Assembly: GCA_031263335.1 (NCBI GenBank)
Contig: JAISGB010000135.1
Span: forward strand, 1 to 11,849
Reading direction: 5' to 3'
Length of the DNA stretch: 11,849 bases
Source of the DNA: Eubacteriales Family XIII. Incertae Sedis bacterium
GTDB lineage: Bacteria > Bacillota > Clostridia > Peptostreptococcales > Anaerovoracaceae
The notes under the pieces: model-generated
Databases searched by the model: none
Seen by the model: only the letters and a program-made list of their open reading frames with translations
Told to the model about the DNA's origin: nothing
Translations under genes and position numbers: made by a program
Shown: piece after piece, positions 2,796-9,668 of the stretch
How the letters are laid out: every line of letters starts with the position of its first letter
Position numbering within the stretch: position 1 is the first letter of the stretch

Positions 2796-4271
2796 ATGAA
2801 TAAAGAAGGGACAAGCCGCTTGCATCGAGGCATCGGGCAACGGCAATTGAGCATGATCGCCATCGGCGGCGCGATCGGCACCGGACTATTTTTGGCCAGC
2901 GGGAGCGCGATACACGACGCCGGACCCGGCGGCGCTCTTTGGGCCTATGGACGTATGGGTATGGTGGTCTATTTTATGATGACCTCCCTCGGGGAGATGG
3001 CGACGCAGTTGCACATCCCGGGCGGATTTCAAGCATTTGCGTCCAGATTCATCGATCCGGCGTTGGGCGCGGCCTTCGGATGGAACTATTGGTTTTCTTG
3101 GGCGATCACATTGGCCGCGGAGTTCGTGGCGGCGGCCATCATCATGCAATATTGGTTTCCCGGTCTGCCGGGTTCCCTGTGGGCGGCTATATTTTTCGTT
3201 TTTCTGATGGTATTGAATCTCCTGTCGGCCAAGGCTTTCTCCGAAGCGGAGTTTTGGTTCGCGGGCATCAAGGTGATCGCCGTGTTGGTATTCCTGTTTG
3301 TCGGCGTCCTGCTGATCCTCGGCGTCGCGGGCGATCATAAGGTAGGCTTCGGGAATTGGGTGATTGAAAGCGGAGGCGCGCGCGCGCCCTTCGTGGGCGG
3401 TTTCGGCGCCATCCTCGGCGTCTTTCTCGTCGCGGGCTTTTCGTTCCAAGGGACGGAGGGCGTCGGTCTGGCGGCGGCCGAAGCGAGGAACCCGGGCAAG
3501 TCGATCCCCAAGGCGATCCGTTCGGTCTTTTGGCGCATCCTGATCTTCTACATCGGCGCGATCTTCGTCATCGGGACCTTGGTGCCGTTTACGGATCCGA
3601 ATCTTCTGGGCGGCAGCGTGGAGGACGTATCCATGTCGCCCTTCACCATCGTTTTTATGAACGCGGGTTTCAAGTCCGCCGCGACCATTGTGAACGCCAT
3701 CATCCTCACGGCAGTGCTGTCCTGCGGGAATTCATCCCTCTATATGGCCTCGCGGATGATCTACGCGATGTCGCTGAACAGACAGGCGCCGAAATTCTTC
3801 GAAAAGGTGAATCGACGCGGCGTCCCCTACTTGGCCGTCTGGGCGACGGGCGCGGTCGGCGCGTTGGCCTGCCTGACGACCTTCATCGGCGTCGATCGGA
3901 TCTACGAGATATTCTATAACGCGTCGGGACAGACCGGCTTCATCATCTGGCTCGGCATCGCCATGGCGCACTATCGATTCAGACGCGCGTGGACGGCGCA
4001 GGGACGGACATTGAACGAGCTGAAATACCGGTCAAAATTCTACCCCGTGGGACCGATCCTCGCGATGGCGTTGAGCCTCTTGGTCATATTCGGCGCGAAT
4101 TACTTCGTCTTTCCGGATTTCAACTGGCCGGATCTGTTCATCTATTACGGATTCTTCCCGGCGTTTATGGCCATCTACCTCGGATTCAAGTTTGTCCACA
4201 AGACGAAGGTCGTCCCGCTGTCCGAATGCGATTTTGAAATGCCGAAAGAGGATCCTTCGGACGCGACATAA
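2796..4271 (+). CDS. Amino acid permease, APC superfamily (LysP/AAT type)
   Basis: 491-residue inner-membrane proton-coupled amino acid importer of the APC superfamily, AAT family (LysP, GabP, AroP relatives). About 12 hydrophobic segments are visible, near residues 18-39, 46-66, 90-118, 127-147, 155-178, 200-218, 245-265, 283-310, 345-366, 376-394, 416-436 and 446-468. Family signatures are IGGAIGTGLF in TM1 (23-32), the MTSLGEMAT and GWNYWFSW blocks, and the loop after TM6 with FQGTEGVGLAAAEARNPGKSIPKAIR (read in two parts, 217-242). The length is usual for the family. The substrate is not readable from sequence. The nearby ornithine carbamoyltransferase and arginine deiminase genes suggest a cationic amino acid such as arginine, ornithine or lysine (inference). 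It is not the ArcD-type antiporter that commonly serves arginine deiminase pathways. It has its own upstream region, and no clear terminator separates it from the next gene. Confidence 0.93.
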   Translation: MNKEGTSRLHRGIGQRQLSMIAIGGAIGTGLFLASGSAIHDAGPGGALWAYGRMGMVVYFMMTSLGEMATQLHIPGGFQAFASRFIDPALGAAFGWNYWFSWAITLAAEFVAAAIIMQYWFPGLPGSLWAAIFFVFLMVLNLLSAKAFSEAEFWFAGIKVIAVLVFLFVGVLLILGVAGDHKVGFGNWVIESGGARAPFVGGFGAILGVFLVAGFSFQGTEGVGLAAAEARNPGKSIPKAIRSVFWRILIFYIGAIFVIGTLVPFTDPNLLGGSVEDVSMSPFTIVFMNAGFKSAATIVNAIILTAVLSCGNSSLYMASRMIYAMSLNRQAPKFFEKVNRRGVPYLAVWATGAVGALACLTTFIGVDRIYEIFYNASGQTGFIIWLGIAMAHYRFRRAWTAQGRTLNELKYRSKFYPVGPILAMALSLLVIFGANYFVFPDFNWPDLFIYYGFFPAFMAIYLGFKFVHKTKVVPLSECDFEMPKEDPSDAT

Positions 4272-4432: not shown

Positions 4433-5953
4433 ATGACGACCATGAATATTGAGATTACCAAGGGCAATCAAACGCCCGTATTCAGACAGGCCGCAAACCA
4501 GATCAAGGCGGCGATATTGAGCGGGGAATTGAAGGAAGGGCTGTTCCTGCCATCCGAACGGGAGATGGCGGGGATGATGGGCGTCCACCGAAATACCGTG
4601 ACCCGCGTCTATCAGGAGTTGGGTTGCGAGGGCTATCTGGAACCCGTACGCGGCCGGGGGCATCGCGTCAGCTTCCGCGAAGGGAACGAAACCTCCGATT
4701 TTTTGCCCGCATTCGCGCGAAGCGGGGCGACGTCGGGCGGTACACACGCGGGGCGCTATCCCGGCGTCCCGTGGTTCGCCTTGATGCGAGACGGATTGGC
4801 GGATCGCAACGCCGCCTTCGACGATCCGGTTTCCGATTCCTGTACCGCGCGCGATATTCCCTTTGCGGCCGGCGTCGCGCCTCCCGAGGCCCGTTTCGAA
4901 GAGGACATCAGGCGAATCTTCCTCGACTTGCTGACATCCGGGGACGAAGGCATCTTCGCCCGATCCCATTATCAAGGACTCTACGCGCTGAGGGCGGGTC
5001 TCTGCGCCATGCTCCGCATGAAGGGCGTCGACGCGGCCCCGAGCGAGATACAGATCGTCAGTGAGACGAACCAAGCCCTGAGTTGCCTCGCGGAACTCTT
5101 TACCGAACGCGGGGATACGATCATCGTGGAGGAACCCACCTCACCGGATATCTACAGGACCTTCCTGTTGCGCGGCGCTTCTGTACTGTCCGTTCCCTCG
5201 GAACGGGACGGCATGGATCTCAACATGCTGGAAACCCTGCTCAAGCGCCGGCGTCCGAAGTTCATCTGCGTGAGTTCCGCCTTCCACGATCCCACGGGCG
5301 TCAGCATGAGCGTCGAAAAGCGCCGGCGCCTCCTCGAACTCTCCTACCGATACGTGATCCCCATCATCGAGGAGGACAGTTCCTCCGAACTGTTCTTCAC
5401 GGAGGATCGGGCGCCGTGCATCAAATCCATGGACGAGAACGGCAACGTGATCTATATCCGATCCTTCGCGCTCACCTTCGCCCCGGGGCTGAAGATGGCC
5501 TTTGTCTTGGGCAATCGGCAGGTCGTAAGGAAATTGGGCCGACTGCAATCCATCCACGCCACGAACCCGGACAGCATCAACCAGAGCGTTATCGACCAAT
5601 GTATCAAAAAAGGACTGTATATGAAACATGCGGGGGATATTCGCCGCTGTTGCAAGGCGAAACGGGATCTGTTCTGCGATTGCTTGGCGGAAGCGCGGAG
5701 GTTGGGGTTGCGGTTTGACGTGCCTCGGGGCGGCGTCTATCTGTGGTGCCGATTGCCGGAGGGCTTGGATCACAGGAAATTCCGGGGCGCGCTCGCGCGG
5801 CGGGGCGTACGCGTCACGCCCGGCGCCCTGTTCTTCCCGAACGGCACGACGGGGGAGGATTATATTCGCCTGAACTATTCCCTTCCCAGCAAGGAGCAGA
5901 TCGAGACGGGCGCGGGCATCCTGACGGAGACCCTGCGCGCCTTGATGCGATAG
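4433..5953 (+). CDS. MocR-type transcriptional regulator (GntR HTH + aminotransferase-like domain) with a degenerate PLP site
   Basis: 506 residues. The N-terminal winged helix of the GntR family spans about 10-80 (LPSEREMAGMMGVHRNTVTRVYQEL, residues 39-63 read in parts, then a GRGHRV wing). From about 140 onward there is a fold-type I aminotransferase domain. In MocR proteins this domain binds PLP and senses an amino acid or amine. Here the segment normally reading SFSKTLAPGLR reads SFALTFAPGLK (344-354), so the Schiff-base lysine is L347. The segment normally IIEDDYDSEF reads IIEEDSSSEL, so the Asp that contacts the PLP ring nitrogen is E314 and the Tyr contact is Ser. The arginine of the C-terminal RLNYS (R479), which holds the ligand carboxylate in relatives, is kept. 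A TAG stop directly precedes ATG 4433, so the start cannot be upstream; ATG 4442 is an alternative. Its position before the two arginine-pathway genes suggests it controls them, possibly the permease too, and itself. Confidence 0.92.
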   Translation: MTTMNIEITKGNQTPVFRQAANQIKAAILSGELKEGLFLPSEREMAGMMGVHRNTVTRVYQELGCEGYLEPVRGRGHRVSFREGNETSDFLPAFARSGATSGGTHAGRYPGVPWFALMRDGLADRNAAFDDPVSDSCTARDIPFAAGVAPPEARFEEDIRRIFLDLLTSGDEGIFARSHYQGLYALRAGLCAMLRMKGVDAAPSEIQIVSETNQALSCLAELFTERGDTIIVEEPTSPDIYRTFLLRGASVLSVPSERDGMDLNMLETLLKRRRPKFICVSSAFHDPTGVSMSVEKRRRLLELSYRYVIPIIEEDSSSELFFTEDRAPCIKSMDENGNVIYIRSFALTFAPGLKMAFVLGNRQVVRKLGRLQSIHATNPDSINQSVIDQCIKKGLYMKHAGDIRRCCKAKRDLFCDCLAEARRLGLRFDVPRGGVYLWCRLPEGLDHRKFRGALARRGVRVTPGALFFPNGTTGEDYIRLNYSLPSKEQIETGAGILTETLRALMR

Positions 5954-6014
5954 CGTCGCCGACGGCGCCGTTGTCGCGCACGCGCGCGACGGATGAAAGG
6001 AACGAGGTGTGGAC
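5954..6014 (+). other. Spacer with a perfect hairpin before the carbamoyltransferase gene
   Basis: GTCGCGC (5973-5979) and GCGCGAC (5984-5990) form a 7-bp stem around ACGC. CGTCGC (5954-5959) can pair with GCGACG (5986-5991) as an alternative. No T tract follows, so it is not a typical terminator. I see no promoter here, which suggests co-transcription with the regulator. GAGG at 6004-6007, 7 nt before ATG 6015, serves as the ribosome binding site. Confidence 0.5.
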
Positions 6015-7001
6015 ATGGCTGTGAATTTAAAGGGCAGAAGTTTTTTGACGTTGACGGATTTTTCGCCGGAAGAGATCCGCTATCTGCTTGATCTGGCGAA
6101 GGACCTGAAAGCCCAAAGACGGGCGGGCGTCCCCTGCGAACGCCTGAAGGGCAAGAACATCCTGTTGATCTTCGAGAAGGCGTCGACGCGGACCCGCTGC
6201 GCCTTTGAGACGGGCGCGACGCAGGAAGGCGCAAGCGTCACCTTCTTGGACAAGGGCAGTTCCCAATTCGGCAAGAAGGAATCCTTGGAGGACAGCGCGA
6301 AGGTATTCGGACGCTTCTACGACGGCATCGAATACAGGGGGCGCGATCAGGCCGTCGCGGAGGAACTGGCGCGGCACAGCGGCGTCCCCGTCTGGAACGG
6401 CTTGACCGATACGGACCATCCCACGCAGATCCTCGCCGACCTGATGACCATAGAGGAACACGCGGACAAACCGTTGCGAAGGGTGAAGGTCGTCTTTTGC
6501 GGCGATACGCGGAACAATATGTCCTACGCGTGGATGTACGGTTGCGCGAAGATGGGCATGGAGTTCGTGGCCTACGGACCCGACGCCTTGGCGCCCGACG
6601 CCGATTCGTTCAATCGGGCCCTCGCCATAGCGAGCGATACGGGCGCGAAGATCGTCTTTTCGAGCAAGGCGGAAGCCCTGTGGGGCGCCGATGTCGTCTA
6701 TACGGACGTCTGGGCGTCCATGGGCGAGGAGGATCTCATCCCCGAACGCGCGGAACAGCTCACGCCCTACCGCGTGACCCGGGCGCTCATGGACAAGACG
6801 GGGAACCCGGAGGCGCTCTTCATGCACTGCCTGCCCGCCTTCCATGATTTCGAGACGGACATGGCAAGCGAATGGAAGGAACGGGGGATCGACATCCGCG
6901 AGGTCACGGACGAGGTATTCCGAAGCAGACGTTCCGTCGTCTTCGATGAGGCGGAGAACCGTATGCACACGATCAAAGCGGTCATGATCGCCACGCTGTA
7001 G
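6015..7001 (+). CDS. Ornithine carbamoyltransferase
   Basis: 328-residue cytosolic enzyme that interconverts ornithine + carbamoyl phosphate and citrulline + phosphate. It works in arginine synthesis (ArgF) or, in reverse, in the arginine deiminase pathway (ArcB). The carbamoyl-phosphate loop STRTR is at 57-61, HPTQ at 135-138, the ornithine-binding D231 and SMGE (235-238), and the HCLP loop with C272 at 271-274. The motif set and length are complete. The downstream arginine deiminase gene, 77 bp away, points to the catabolic role, but sequence alone does not separate ArcB from ArgF, so no symbol is given. ATG 6015 is preferred over the in-frame GTG at 6009 because GAGG (6004-6007) is correctly spaced for it. 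Confidence 0.96.
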   Translation: MAVNLKGRSFLTLTDFSPEEIRYLLDLAKDLKAQRRAGVPCERLKGKNILLIFEKASTRTRCAFETGATQEGASVTFLDKGSSQFGKKESLEDSAKVFGRFYDGIEYRGRDQAVAEELARHSGVPVWNGLTDTDHPTQILADLMTIEEHADKPLRRVKVVFCGDTRNNMSYAWMYGCAKMGMEFVAYGPDALAPDADSFNRALAIASDTGAKIVFSSKAEALWGADVVYTDVWASMGEEDLIPERAEQLTPYRVTRALMDKTGNPEALFMHCLPAFHDFETDMASEWKERGIDIREVTDEVFRSRRSVVFDEAENRMHTIKAVMIATL

Positions 7002-7078: not shown

Positions 7079-8365
7079 ATGGAACCGTTAAGAAGCACGC
7101 CGTTGCAAGAGGATTTCACGGACATAGGGAAGCACACGGGGCGGAAGATCAAACTGAATGTCAACTCCGAAATAGGGAAACTTCAAGCCGTCCTCCTGCA
7201 CCGGCCCGGGCGGGAATTGGAGAAGCTCACGCCCGATCTGTTGAAGACGCTGTTGTTTGACGATATCCCGTGGCTGAAACAGATGCGGGAGGAGCACGAC
7301 AAGTTCGCCGATCTGTTGCGCCAACGCGGCGCGGAGGTATTGTATGTGGATCAAATGCTCTCGGAAATATTGGAGGACGACGCGGTCAAGGATCGCTTCG
7401 TTTCGGAACTGCTCGCGGACGCCCTCATCGAGAACGAGGAACTGCGCGAGGTGCTTTTCGACGATATCCGAAGCCGCCCGCCGCGGGAGGTGACGGAGAT
7501 CGCCATCGCCGGACTGCTGAAAAAGGACATCCGGCTACCCTTCGTCGAGAAGAACCTATGGGATTATATACGCAAGGACTACCCCCTGTACATCGACCCG
7601 ATCCCGAACATCTACTTCATGCGGGACCCGGCCGCCGTCGTCGGGGACGGACTCAGCGTCAGCCGCATGTACACGAGGGCAAGAAGCAGGGAGCCGAAGA
7701 TCGTACACTATATCTACAACTACCATCCCGTCTTCGAATCGACGGAAAAGACCCTGTGGTACAATGAAAACATGCCGAACAGCATCGAGGGCGGGGACAT
7801 GTTGATGTTGTCCAAGCGGACGATCGCCATCGGCTGCAGCCAAAGGACCTCGCCCGGCGCCATCGAACGCATCGCGCGCAACCTGTTCAAGGGGCGGGAA
7901 GAGCTGAAGGAGATCCTCGCCATACGCATCCCGGCCACGCGCGCCTTTATGCACCTCGATACGGTATTCACGATGATCGATTACGACAAATTCGCGATCT
8001 ATCCCGGCATCTCCGATCAGGTGGAAGTATACAAACTGACGCGCGGGAAAGGCGGCGGCGTCCACGTATCCTCGGAGGCGGATCTGTCGTCCGCGCTGAA
8101 AAGGAGCCTGCGCCTGTCCGCCGTCGATCTGATCCCGAGCGGCGGCGGAGACGCCGTCACGGCGGCGCGGGAACAATGGAATGACAGCACAAACATCCTC
8201 GCCATCGCGCCGAGCGTCGTAGTCACCTATTGCAGGAACGAGCGTTCCAACGAGGCCCTGCGCAGACACGGCGTCTACGTCTTGGAGATCGGCGGCTCCG
8301 AATTGGTACGAGGAAGGGGCGGCCCCCGCTGTATGAGCTGCCCCTTGTCTCGAGAAGATGATTGA
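7079..8365 (+). CDS. arcA: Arginine deiminase
   Basis: 428-residue cytosolic enzyme that hydrolyses arginine to citrulline and ammonia, the first step of the arginine deiminase pathway. The full catalytic set of the guanidino-modifying superfamily is present: D183 in FMRDP, E237 and D240 in EGGD, H292 and D294 in MHLDT, and the nucleophile C418 in GGPRCMSCPL. The family N-terminal block NVNSEIGKLQAVLLHRPG begins near residue 27, so about 20 residues precede the usual start. ATG 7079 is kept because no ATG lies in frame between it and that block. The citrulline made here is the substrate of the carbamoyltransferase encoded just upstream. Carbamate kinase, needed to gain ATP, is not in the window. 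The 3' end faces the minus-strand hydrolase gene with only 15 bp between them and no visible terminator. Confidence 0.97.
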   Translation: MEPLRSTPLQEDFTDIGKHTGRKIKLNVNSEIGKLQAVLLHRPGRELEKLTPDLLKTLLFDDIPWLKQMREEHDKFADLLRQRGAEVLYVDQMLSEILEDDAVKDRFVSELLADALIENEELREVLFDDIRSRPPREVTEIAIAGLLKKDIRLPFVEKNLWDYIRKDYPLYIDPIPNIYFMRDPAAVVGDGLSVSRMYTRARSREPKIVHYIYNYHPVFESTEKTLWYNENMPNSIEGGDMLMLSKRTIAIGCSQRTSPGAIERIARNLFKGREELKEILAIRIPATRAFMHLDTVFTMIDYDKFAIYPGISDQVEVYKLTRGKGGGVHVSSEADLSSALKRSLRLSAVDLIPSGGGDAVTAAREQWNDSTNILAIAPSVVVTYCRNERSNEALRRHGVYVLEIGGSELVRGRGGPRCMSCPLSREDD

Positions 8366-8380
8366 CAAATCCAACGATGA

Positions 8381-9607
8381 TTAAAGTCTCGCGTCCGCCT
8401 CAACGAGCGCGTTGAGCAGGACGTTCGCCCCGCGCCACGTCTCCTCGGGCGACGAATATTCGACGACGGTATGGCTCAGCCCATCCTTGCTCGGGATGAA
8501 GATCATGACGGCGGGCAACAGTTCCGACACGTACTGCGCGTCGTGCCCCGCCCCGGAATACATGCGCCTTGAGGTATAGCCCAAACCGTTTACCGCCTTT
8601 TCCACGCAGTCGAGCAAGCCCGCGTCGAACTTGACGGTCTTTCGTCCCCAATGCTCCTCATAGCTGAGCCGGCAACCGCAGACCTCCGAAGGCAACTGTT
8701 CGATGACCTCCACGACCTGCTTGATCACCTGCGGATCCTTGTGCCTACTGTCTAAGGAGAATTTTACATAATTGGGGACTACCGTATGGATGTTCGGCTT
8801 GCAGACGATCTCCCCGGTCGTGAACACCAATTCCTTGTCCAAGGCGCCCAACTTGTCCCAGAGATCGAGGATGATCTTGGCGGCCGCCCGCAACGCGTCC
8901 TTCCTGTAATGCTGCGGCGTCGTTCCCGCGTGGCTCGAGACGCCCTCGAGAATGATATCGTAATTGACCATACCCACGACGCCTTCCACGACGCCGATCT
9001 CCAAACCGCCCTCTTCCAGGACGGGACCCTGCTCGATATGGGGTTCGAAATACGCGCAATAATCCTTGTCGTTGAGCCGGTTGGACTCGTCGCCGACCCA
9101 CCCGCTAGCCTCAAGCGCCTCGCCGAAGGTGACGGCGCCGCCCGTCTCCGTGACCGCCAACATGGATTCCTTGGTCCATTTCTTCATGACGATGCCGGAG
9201 GACATCATGGCCGGCTCGAAGCGCGCGCCCTCTTCGTTCGTCCACACCATGACGGTGATGGGATGACGCAACTTGATCCCTTCCTTGATGATCGTTTCGG
9301 CGACCTCGAGGCCCGCAAGCACGCCGTATATCCCGTCGTAATTGCCGCCGCTCCGCACGGAATCCATGTGCGAACCCATGACGATGCGCGGCAGATCCTC
9401 CGTACCCGGATAGGTCGCGTAGAGGTTGCCGATGTCGTCGGATTCCAAGGACATCCCCAACGCCTCCGTTCGCCGCTTGAATTCAGCCCGCGCCGACAAC
9501 GCCGCCTCCGACAGGGACAGCCGCGTAATGCCGCCCCCCTCGAGCGCGCCGAACTTGCTGAACGCTTGGATCTTTTCATTCATCCTGTCTTTATCGGTCG
9601 TCAACAT
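8381..9607 (-). CDS. M20-family Zn-dependent amidohydrolase (N-carbamoyl-L-amino acid hydrolase / allantoate amidohydrolase type)
   Basis: 408-residue cytosolic dinuclear-metal hydrolase of peptidase family M20, in the subgroup with N-carbamoyl-L-amino acid hydrolases, allantoate amidohydrolases and beta-ureidopropionases. The expected metal ligands are H80 (MGSHMDSV), D91 (GGNYDG), E125/E126 (TNEEGARF), H190 (EPHIEQG) and H379 (LSHTVVE). The dimerisation-domain substrate motifs VSSHAGTTP (H226) and LDSRH (R288) are kept, so the enzyme should be active. It releases CO2 and NH3 from a carbamoyl or ureido group. Which substrate cannot be told from sequence: carbamoyl amino acid, ureidoglycine/allantoate and others are open. 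The start at 9607 has AGGAGGA (9622-9616) 8 nt upstream; the frame extends to 9658 but without family similarity. It lies 61 bp downstream of the FAD dehydrogenase gene and is probably in its operon. Confidence 0.92.
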   Translation of the reverse strand: MLTTDKDRMNEKIQAFSKFGALEGGGITRLSLSEAALSARAEFKRRTEALGMSLESDDIGNLYATYPGTEDLPRIVMGSHMDSVRSGGNYDGIYGVLAGLEVAETIIKEGIKLRHPITVMVWTNEEGARFEPAMMSSGIVMKKWTKESMLAVTETGGAVTFGEALEASGWVGDESNRLNDKDYCAYFEPHIEQGPVLEEGGLEIGVVEGVVGMVNYDIILEGVSSHAGTTPQHYRKDALRAAAKIILDLWDKLGALDKELVFTTGEIVCKPNIHTVVPNYVKFSLDSRHKDPQVIKQVVEVIEQLPSEVCGCRLSYEEHWGRKTVKFDAGLLDCVEKAVNGLGYTSRRMYSGAGHDAQYVSELLPAVMIFIPSKDGLSHTVVEYSSPEETWRGANVLLNALVEADARL

Positions 9608-9615
9608 ATCATTTC

Positions 9616-9622
9616 TCCTCCT
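9616..9622 (-). promoter_or_regulatory. Ribosome binding site deciding the hydrolase start
   Basis: AGGAGGA on the minus strand lies 8 nt before ATG 9607. An out-of-frame ATG at 9612-9610 is too close to be used. This selects a 408-residue protein over the longer frame from 9658. Confidence 0.8.
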
Positions 9623-9668
9623 TTTCCCGCGCGAAGCGCCATCGGCCCGACCGCTCAAGAAACCGCGA

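Follow-up and report, generated by a model that had tools for sequence, protein, structure and literature searches.

The DNA analyzed here, an 11,849-nucleotide stretch from a Eubacteriales Family XIII bacterium (positions 1 to 11,849 of contig JAISGB010000135.1, assembly GCA_031263335.1; referred to as the window), carries on its forward strand a run of four genes in the order permease, mocR, arcB, and arcA. The second of these (positions 4433 to 5953) encodes a MocR-type regulator of 506 residues that does not have the lysine to which pyridoxal 5'-phosphate (PLP) is bound in other MocR proteins. It is preceded by an amino-acid permease gene (2796 to 4271; AA_permease, PF00324, E 3.8e-133) and followed by genes for an arcB-type ornithine carbamoyltransferase (6009 to 7001; TIGR00658, 370 bits, over the cut-off) and an arginine deiminase, arcA (7079 to 8365; over the cut-off of NF002381 with 479 bits and under that of TIGR01078, 471.5 bits versus 489.1). 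To our knowledge, MocR regulators have been described as PLP-dependent, among them GabR of B. subtilis, PdxR, EnuR, PtsJ, and YczR. The window regulator shares with these the two parts of the MocR architecture, an N-terminal GntR winged helix for DNA binding (residues 19 to 79, positions 4487 to 4669; PF00392, E 3.3e-12, 46.3 bits versus a cut-off of 27) and a C-terminal fold-type-I domain (Pfam Aminotran_1_2, residues 178 to 493), and an AlphaFold2 model with a mean pLDDT of 91.5 predicts that the aminotransferase-domain fold is kept. Its scores fall under the NCBIfam cut-offs for PdxR (NF052282, 263.4 bits versus an equivalog cut-off of 320), GabR (NF052285, 136.4 versus 600), and EhuR (NF052286, 134.4 versus 480), ruling out its assignment to any of the three.

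The cofactor site was compared between two sets of proteins within one alignment. The Lys-less set (n = 120) consisted of the window protein (P0001) and 119 proteins from the best 120 listed of 367 matches, with its duplicate P0002 removed; it includes one fragment, and position 347 is readable in 119 members, the window protein among them. The Lys-type controls (n = 120) were the best 120 listed of 4532 matches of a single Lys-type query and thus represent a single section of MocR diversity; the 54 Lys-type proteins in the tree described below are broader. At the position of the Schiff-base lysine (GabR Lys312), the window regulator has a leucine, L347 (codon CTC, 5471 to 5473), as claimed by an earlier note on this DNA. 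The codon was verified, and phmmer alignments to LysN and PH0207, gap-free in this neighborhood, placed L347 under the Schiff-base lysine. Alignment with homologues, which that note had proposed, revealed no conserved lysine there either: position 347 is L in 116, F in 2, M in 1, and a gap in 1 of the Lys-less proteins, with lysine in 0 of 119 readable sequences versus 120/120 controls. A misalignment concealing a lysine could be ruled out, as the old loop holds no conserved one. A sequencing error or a lone pseudogene was likewise ruled out by the conservation across the clade and by reading frames that are open in those close relatives that were listed.

Excerpts of the GabR literature assign Asp279 to the ring nitrogen of PLP, Lys312 to the aldimine, Tyr205 and Tyr281 to stacking, Arg319 to the phosphate, and Arg207 and Arg430 to the ligand carboxylate (PMC6917764). 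Differences from the Lys-type pattern were found around most of these positions. The former phosphate loop, G-S-Q-Q in Lys-type proteins, reads E211-T212-N213-Q214 (5063 to 5074); the Gly-to-Glu change at 211 was not part of the earlier note, yet it is nearly universal, with E in 119 and D in 1 of 120 Lys-less proteins versus G in all controls, and position 213 is N in 120/120 versus Q in 119/120. In place of the aromatic PLP-stacking segment stands S237-P238-D239-I240-Y241-R242 (5141 to 5158), where P238 (118/120; F in 96/120 controls), D239 (118/120; G, S, P, or C in controls), and R242 (119/120; Q in 98/120 controls) are conserved; GabR Arg207 would map to D239, by spacing rather than by alignment. 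Position 286 (5288 to 5290), Asn in every control, is Asp in 72 of the Lys-less proteins, among them that of the window, and Asn in the other 48. The former ring-nitrogen Asp and Tyr contacts lie within E314-D315-S316-S317 (5372 to 5383). The replacement of the ring-nitrogen Asp by E314 (GAG, 5372 to 5374) stands for the window protein but is not fixed in the clade (E 92, D 25, A 2, T 1, versus D in 120/120 controls). The serine proposed to replace a Tyr contact, S316 (AGT, 5378 to 5380; GabR Tyr281), is present but says little by itself, as the controls have Pro or Ala there; according to the parts of PMC6677901 available, Ala, Val, or Ile is frequent at this position in other MocR clusters. 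The telling change is that at the adjacent S317 (TCC, 5381 to 5383), where A (81) and S (30) predominate among the Lys-less proteins and Y is invariant (120/120) in the controls. Position 346 is A in 70 and S in 45 Lys-less proteins, against S in 120/120. The former phosphate Arg, placed by its spacing from the lysine (GabR Arg319), is still basic in the window protein (K354, 5492 to 5494), with R 46, S 40, G 19, and K 6 in the Lys-less set and R in all controls. The ligand-carboxylate arginine, R479 (CGC, 5867 to 5869), is retained as the earlier note held (R in 119 and a gap in 1 of 120; R in 120/120 controls) and matches GabR Arg430 by role as given in the same excerpts of PMC6917764. Outside the pocket, H52 and N54 of the winged helix occur in 120/120 Lys-less proteins, the corresponding residues of the controls being N (118/120) and S (93) or T (25). 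Of seven canonical contacts, the controls keep 6 to 7, the Lys-less clade 0 to 3, and the window protein 0. To judge from these residues, the phosphate, stacking, ring, and aldimine contacts have changed in concert, whereas the carboxylate Arg remains, and the PLP site of the branch is largely dismantled.

Such changes speak against a protein that still uses PLP, either bound noncovalently or taken from solution as a ready-made PLP-amino-acid adduct, so that sensing would remain B6-dependent. A phosphate-loop Gly has become a near-invariant E211, the stacking aromatic has become Pro, Tyr317 has been replaced, and 73/119 proteins no longer have R354; furthermore, EnuR in which the Lys was changed to His is reported in excerpts of PMC8739950 to be colorless, having lost PLP, and to act as a constitutive repressor. 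We consider this explanation decidedly unlikely, even though the predicted fold is retained, D315 and E/D314 are acidic, some members have N286 and R354, the window protein has K354, and a sister subfamily has both N286 and K354. We infer instead that PLP is absent from the window regulator.

Since the EnuR lysine mutant is constitutive, a branch that persisted without the lysine through this much divergence would have either acquired a new way of sensing or abandoned it. In the latter case the aminotransferase domain would be a dimerization scaffold only, and a ligand-blind repressor or activator would set arc expression by its dose, as the behavior of that mutant (PMC8739950, in the part seen) and the variability of the pocket at, for example, positions 286, 316, and 354 might suggest. 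But E211, N213, D239, R242, and R479 are strongly conserved without an obvious structural role among proteins mostly ∼40% identical to that of the window, making a pure scaffold very unlikely in our view; conserved Arg479 and the new conserved acidic residues favor another mode of sensing. Retention of an enzyme fold after loss of the lysine has a parallel in the LCB1 subunit of serine palmitoyltransferase, a fold-type-I pseudoenzyme without the Schiff-base Lys. LCB1, however, is an enzyme partner subunit, neither a sensor nor a DNA-binding protein. From LysN and the archaeal kynurenine aminotransferase-like enzymes of the same fold type, the window regulator differs both in the missing catalytic Lys and PLP site and in its fused DNA-binding domain.

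To place the Lys-less proteins among other MocR regulators, a quick maximum-likelihood tree (IQ-TREE quick mode without bootstrap) was built from 98 proteins with the pocket columns removed, with a midpoint root for drawing only. All 44 non-Lys rows, one of which (L023) ends before position 347, were separated from the 54 Lys-type rows by one branch (SH-aLRT 100), so that one change is required and independent losses of the lysine are not needed. The window regulator thus descends, in this quick tree, from other MocR proteins, as part of one branch among Lys-type rows. Position 211 was Gly in 54/54 Lys-type rows and Glu or Asp in every non-Lys row. The suggestion of a MocR branch without the PLP lysine, made in the earlier note, is therefore borne out by a family and its sister subfamily: Lys-less MocR regulators form a lineage rather than one odd gene, and the loss seems to be shared from a single ancestor. 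Among its few named members, the subfamily associated with arc genes occurs in Clostridiales Family XIII/Anaerovoracaceae (Sinanaerobacter, Anaerovorax, Emergencia, and Ihubacter), and one arc-type member (G096) belongs to another family of the same order. Several Lys-less proteins, among the minority bearing names, are called "PLP-dependent aminotransferase family protein" in databases, a name that is probably wrong for them.

The sister subfamily was found with a paralogue from genome G030 as the query, and its best 120 listed of 548 matches (P0242 to P0361; genes at L044 7041 to 8525, L046 7546 to 9000, L047 6632 to 8140, and L048 6553 to 7719) were read. Lys at position 347 occurred in 0/120 (L 107, M 8, I 3, V 1, R 1), and E211 (119/120), D239 (120/120), and R479 (116/120) were conserved, with mostly Ser at position 242. 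Its neighbors include M20 amidohydrolases at two of the four loci (L044 and L046) and a major facilitator superfamily (MFS) transporter at L048, and its ligand probably differs from that of the arc subfamily. A class-wide search of 391 genomes gave 30 best-scoring loci, of which 27 (L065 to L091) were Lys-type and 3 (L062 to L064), from the window's own genome and two of the same family, were Lys-less; rarer Lys-less forms may exist elsewhere in the class beyond the best-scoring loci read.

We fetched 20 loci around relatives of the window regulator, in 18 of which the next gene was readable (L023 and L036 end at contig edges). The gene directly after mocR on the same strand was arcB in 15/18 loci, and arcA then followed in 13 of these 15, the other two (L004 and L031) stopping within arcB; L028, L039, and L041 had non-arc neighborhoods. 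Carbamate kinase was clustered in 11 loci (one representative identified), and the 5' side of the regulator held an MreB-like gene in 13 loci and an RlmL-like gene in 14 (representatives identified). In the window's own genome (58.8% complete), the search for arcC returned nothing beyond a weak 22-bit match. Within the window's genus, a permease 89% identical to that of the window also lies 5' of mocR in G001 (L023), and none was found within 748 bp upstream of mocR in G002 (L004). Across 89 genomes of the family, with arc-clade MocR defined by E <1e-100, arcA fragments counted as present (G001, G002, and G011), and weak partial matches counted as absent (G019, G029, G039, and G055), arcA occurred in 17/19 genomes with an arc-clade MocR versus 15/70 without (p 8e-8, uncorrected for relatedness).

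These neighbors, as the earlier note had argued and as we agree from gene context, favor arginine, citrulline, or ornithine as the ligand, and the conserved acidic residues of the emptied pocket would favor a cationic one. Another compound of the pathway, be it carbamoyl phosphate, citrulline, ornithine, or an N-carbamoyl amino acid, might be sensed instead of arginine, given that the neighboring genes make and use such compounds, that a hydantoinase/carbamoylase-type M20 hydrolase adjoins arcA in the window, and that an M20 enzyme stands beside the regulator at two of the four sister-subfamily loci. Yet an acidic lining fits a cationic side chain and R479 fits an alpha-carboxylate, and we regard these other compounds as unlikely. 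The M20 hydrolase gene itself (8381 to 9658, allantoate amidohydrolase-like) is convergent with arcA and possibly linked to the use of carbamoyl compounds.

The gaps between mocR and arcB share the heptamer CTGGTAC or CTGGCAC. Half-sites were present in 13/13 gaps, 19 in number versus 0.4 in dinucleotide shuffles (3 on the opposite strand), and a second half-site lies 24 bp upstream, in several loci within the end of mocR. The resulting consensus, CYGGYAC-N17-CYGGYAC, was read from 13 of the loci later scored, and L004, L029, L039, and L041 were also viewed before scoring; those scored unseen were the site before the window permease, L023, L106, L109, and the controls. Across 22 mocR loci, the operator was matched at 14/14 positions in 14 and at 13/14 in 4 more, and these 18 sites stand before arcB (14), before a permease (window and L023), or before other genes (L039 and L041). 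The window holds a sole 14/14 copy (0.01 expected), the predicted operator CCGGCAC-N17-CCGGCAC at 2659 to 2689, which precedes the permease-mocR-arcB-arcA run and lies 106 bp before the permease start codon. A possible −10 element, TATGAT (2714 to 2719), was read by eye 31 bp downstream from where the second half-site begins (29 bp in L027); a sigma-70 consensus scan, whose matches were at chance level, did not return it.

In G086, where the regulator and arc genes lie on different contigs, a 14/14 operator was nevertheless found upstream of arcB (L106). At L109 (G045), a genome in which a contig end truncates the regulator and the arc genes lie on a separate contig, the match was 12/14, which, like that of L004, is weak evidence, 7 of 16 control arcA loci reaching 12/14 or better. 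No 14/14 operator was found in these 16 controls, and the one 13/14 match (L093) lay inside arcA. The genome of one control, L105 (G088), encodes a Lys-less MocR of the sister subfamily, and another control, L107, is the second arcA locus of G074, which has an arc-clade regulator; the other 14 come from 13 genomes, some incomplete, whose best MocR match is too weak for the arc clade. Gene order and the shared operator together tie part of the Lys-less branch, as far as its DNA can tell, to arginine catabolism, and through both linkage to arc genes and a shared promoter operator the window protein qualifies as a candidate arginine deiminase operon regulator. Among other sites, a 13/14 tandem lies directly before the RlmL-like gene preceding mocR in G020 (L031, 11370 to 11400) and would fit autoregulation. 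G051 keeps a perfect tandem operator (L039, 9154 to 9184) after a divergent regulator with Met347 and Asp211, the next gene encoding an ion-channel protein, and G061 has a divergent Lys-less second copy with Phe347 (L041, 1685 to 3214).

On this basis we think it rather likely that the window regulator is a cofactor-free amino-acid sensor from a MocR branch that lost PLP once, that it controls the arginine deiminase genes, and that it probably responds to arginine. The residue changes, the single change in the tree, the predicted fold, the gene order, and the operator match are what was observed; the dimer mode, promoter positions, absence of PLP, and identity of the ligand are its conditional parts. 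The loss of PLP binding would date to the ancestor of Clostridiales Family XIII/Anaerovoracaceae or earlier. As a head-to-tail dimer, the regulator would occupy both CYGGYAC half-sites, which are spaced by 24 bp, with the half-site closer to the promoter lying near the −35 region. It would thereby control the arginine deiminase genes, which in the window would mean permease, mocR, arcB, and arcA. The aminotransferase domain, still folded, would offer Arg479 to the carboxylate of an amino acid, and the emptied cofactor space, lined by E211, E314/D315, and D239, would directly accommodate the remainder of the ligand, which is most likely the guanidinium group of l-arginine. Arginine would then switch DNA binding without Schiff-base chemistry, repression and activation being both compatible with this scheme. 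For the whole branch (two subfamilies or more, with hundreds of proteins), we see the chances as evenly balanced that PLP was lost once and that the fold is now a cofactor-free receptor of free amino acids, with the arc subfamily reading arginine through E211, E314, and D239 on the guanidinium and R479 on the carboxylate.

Several observations weigh against a cofactor-free arginine sensor. Parts of the PLP site persist, 25/120 Lys-less proteins retaining Asp314, 46 Arg354, and 48 Asn286, with a basic Lys354 in the window protein and, in the sister subfamily, N286 in 120/120 and K354 in 116/120. The 15/70 genomes that carry arcA without an arc-clade MocR indicate that arc genes can be run otherwise. 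ArgR, an established arginine sensor, is matched in 81/89 genomes of the family, making a second arginine sensor less necessary, although none was found in the window's genus (G000 to G002, all three genomes incomplete). G051 has the regulator and the 14/14 operator, but no arcA was found in its 96% complete genome; in G061 a 13/14 operator accompanies the second copy and stands before an MFS transporter gene (L041, 204 to 1529), from which the regulon may reach beyond arc genes; and no tandem operator was found near the paralogue at L049. The 24-bp spacing of the half-sites is no whole number of helix turns. Finally, excerpts of PMC5320631 describe paired direct boxes and a TGT/TGG group as frequent in operators of PLP-dependent MocR regulators, which the predicted tandem resembles, and GntR-type boxes with a TGG core as common among them, so that the motif is uninformative on the type of ligand.

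Established regulators of arginine deiminase operons are of the ArgR type and the Crp/Fnr type (ArcR), and ArgR senses arginine through a small hexameric domain. The regulator proposed here would have control of arcA, arcB, and arcC in common with them, but the folds are unrelated. According to the available part of PMC6677901, every MocR cluster of that study conserves Asp279 and Lys312, and YczR retains its Asp and Lys according to an excerpt of PMC4944035; among the matches listed in open-access literature, no paper dealt with Lys-less MocR proteins or with MocR control of arginine deiminase genes, an earlier mention being possible. If the PLP site was lost once, the branch would be a natural experiment with cofactor-free and PLP-using sensors on one scaffold, and their comparison would teach what the cofactor adds to signaling. 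We also propose a regulator, together with its operator and regulon, for the degradation of arginine in one Clostridia family. At its 5' end, the window further contains a single frame (1 to 1155) in which the end of an acyl-CoA dehydrogenase, the alpha domain of an electron-transfer flavoprotein, and a rubredoxin are joined; a gene for a flavodiiron-type protein (1174 to 2508) comes next.
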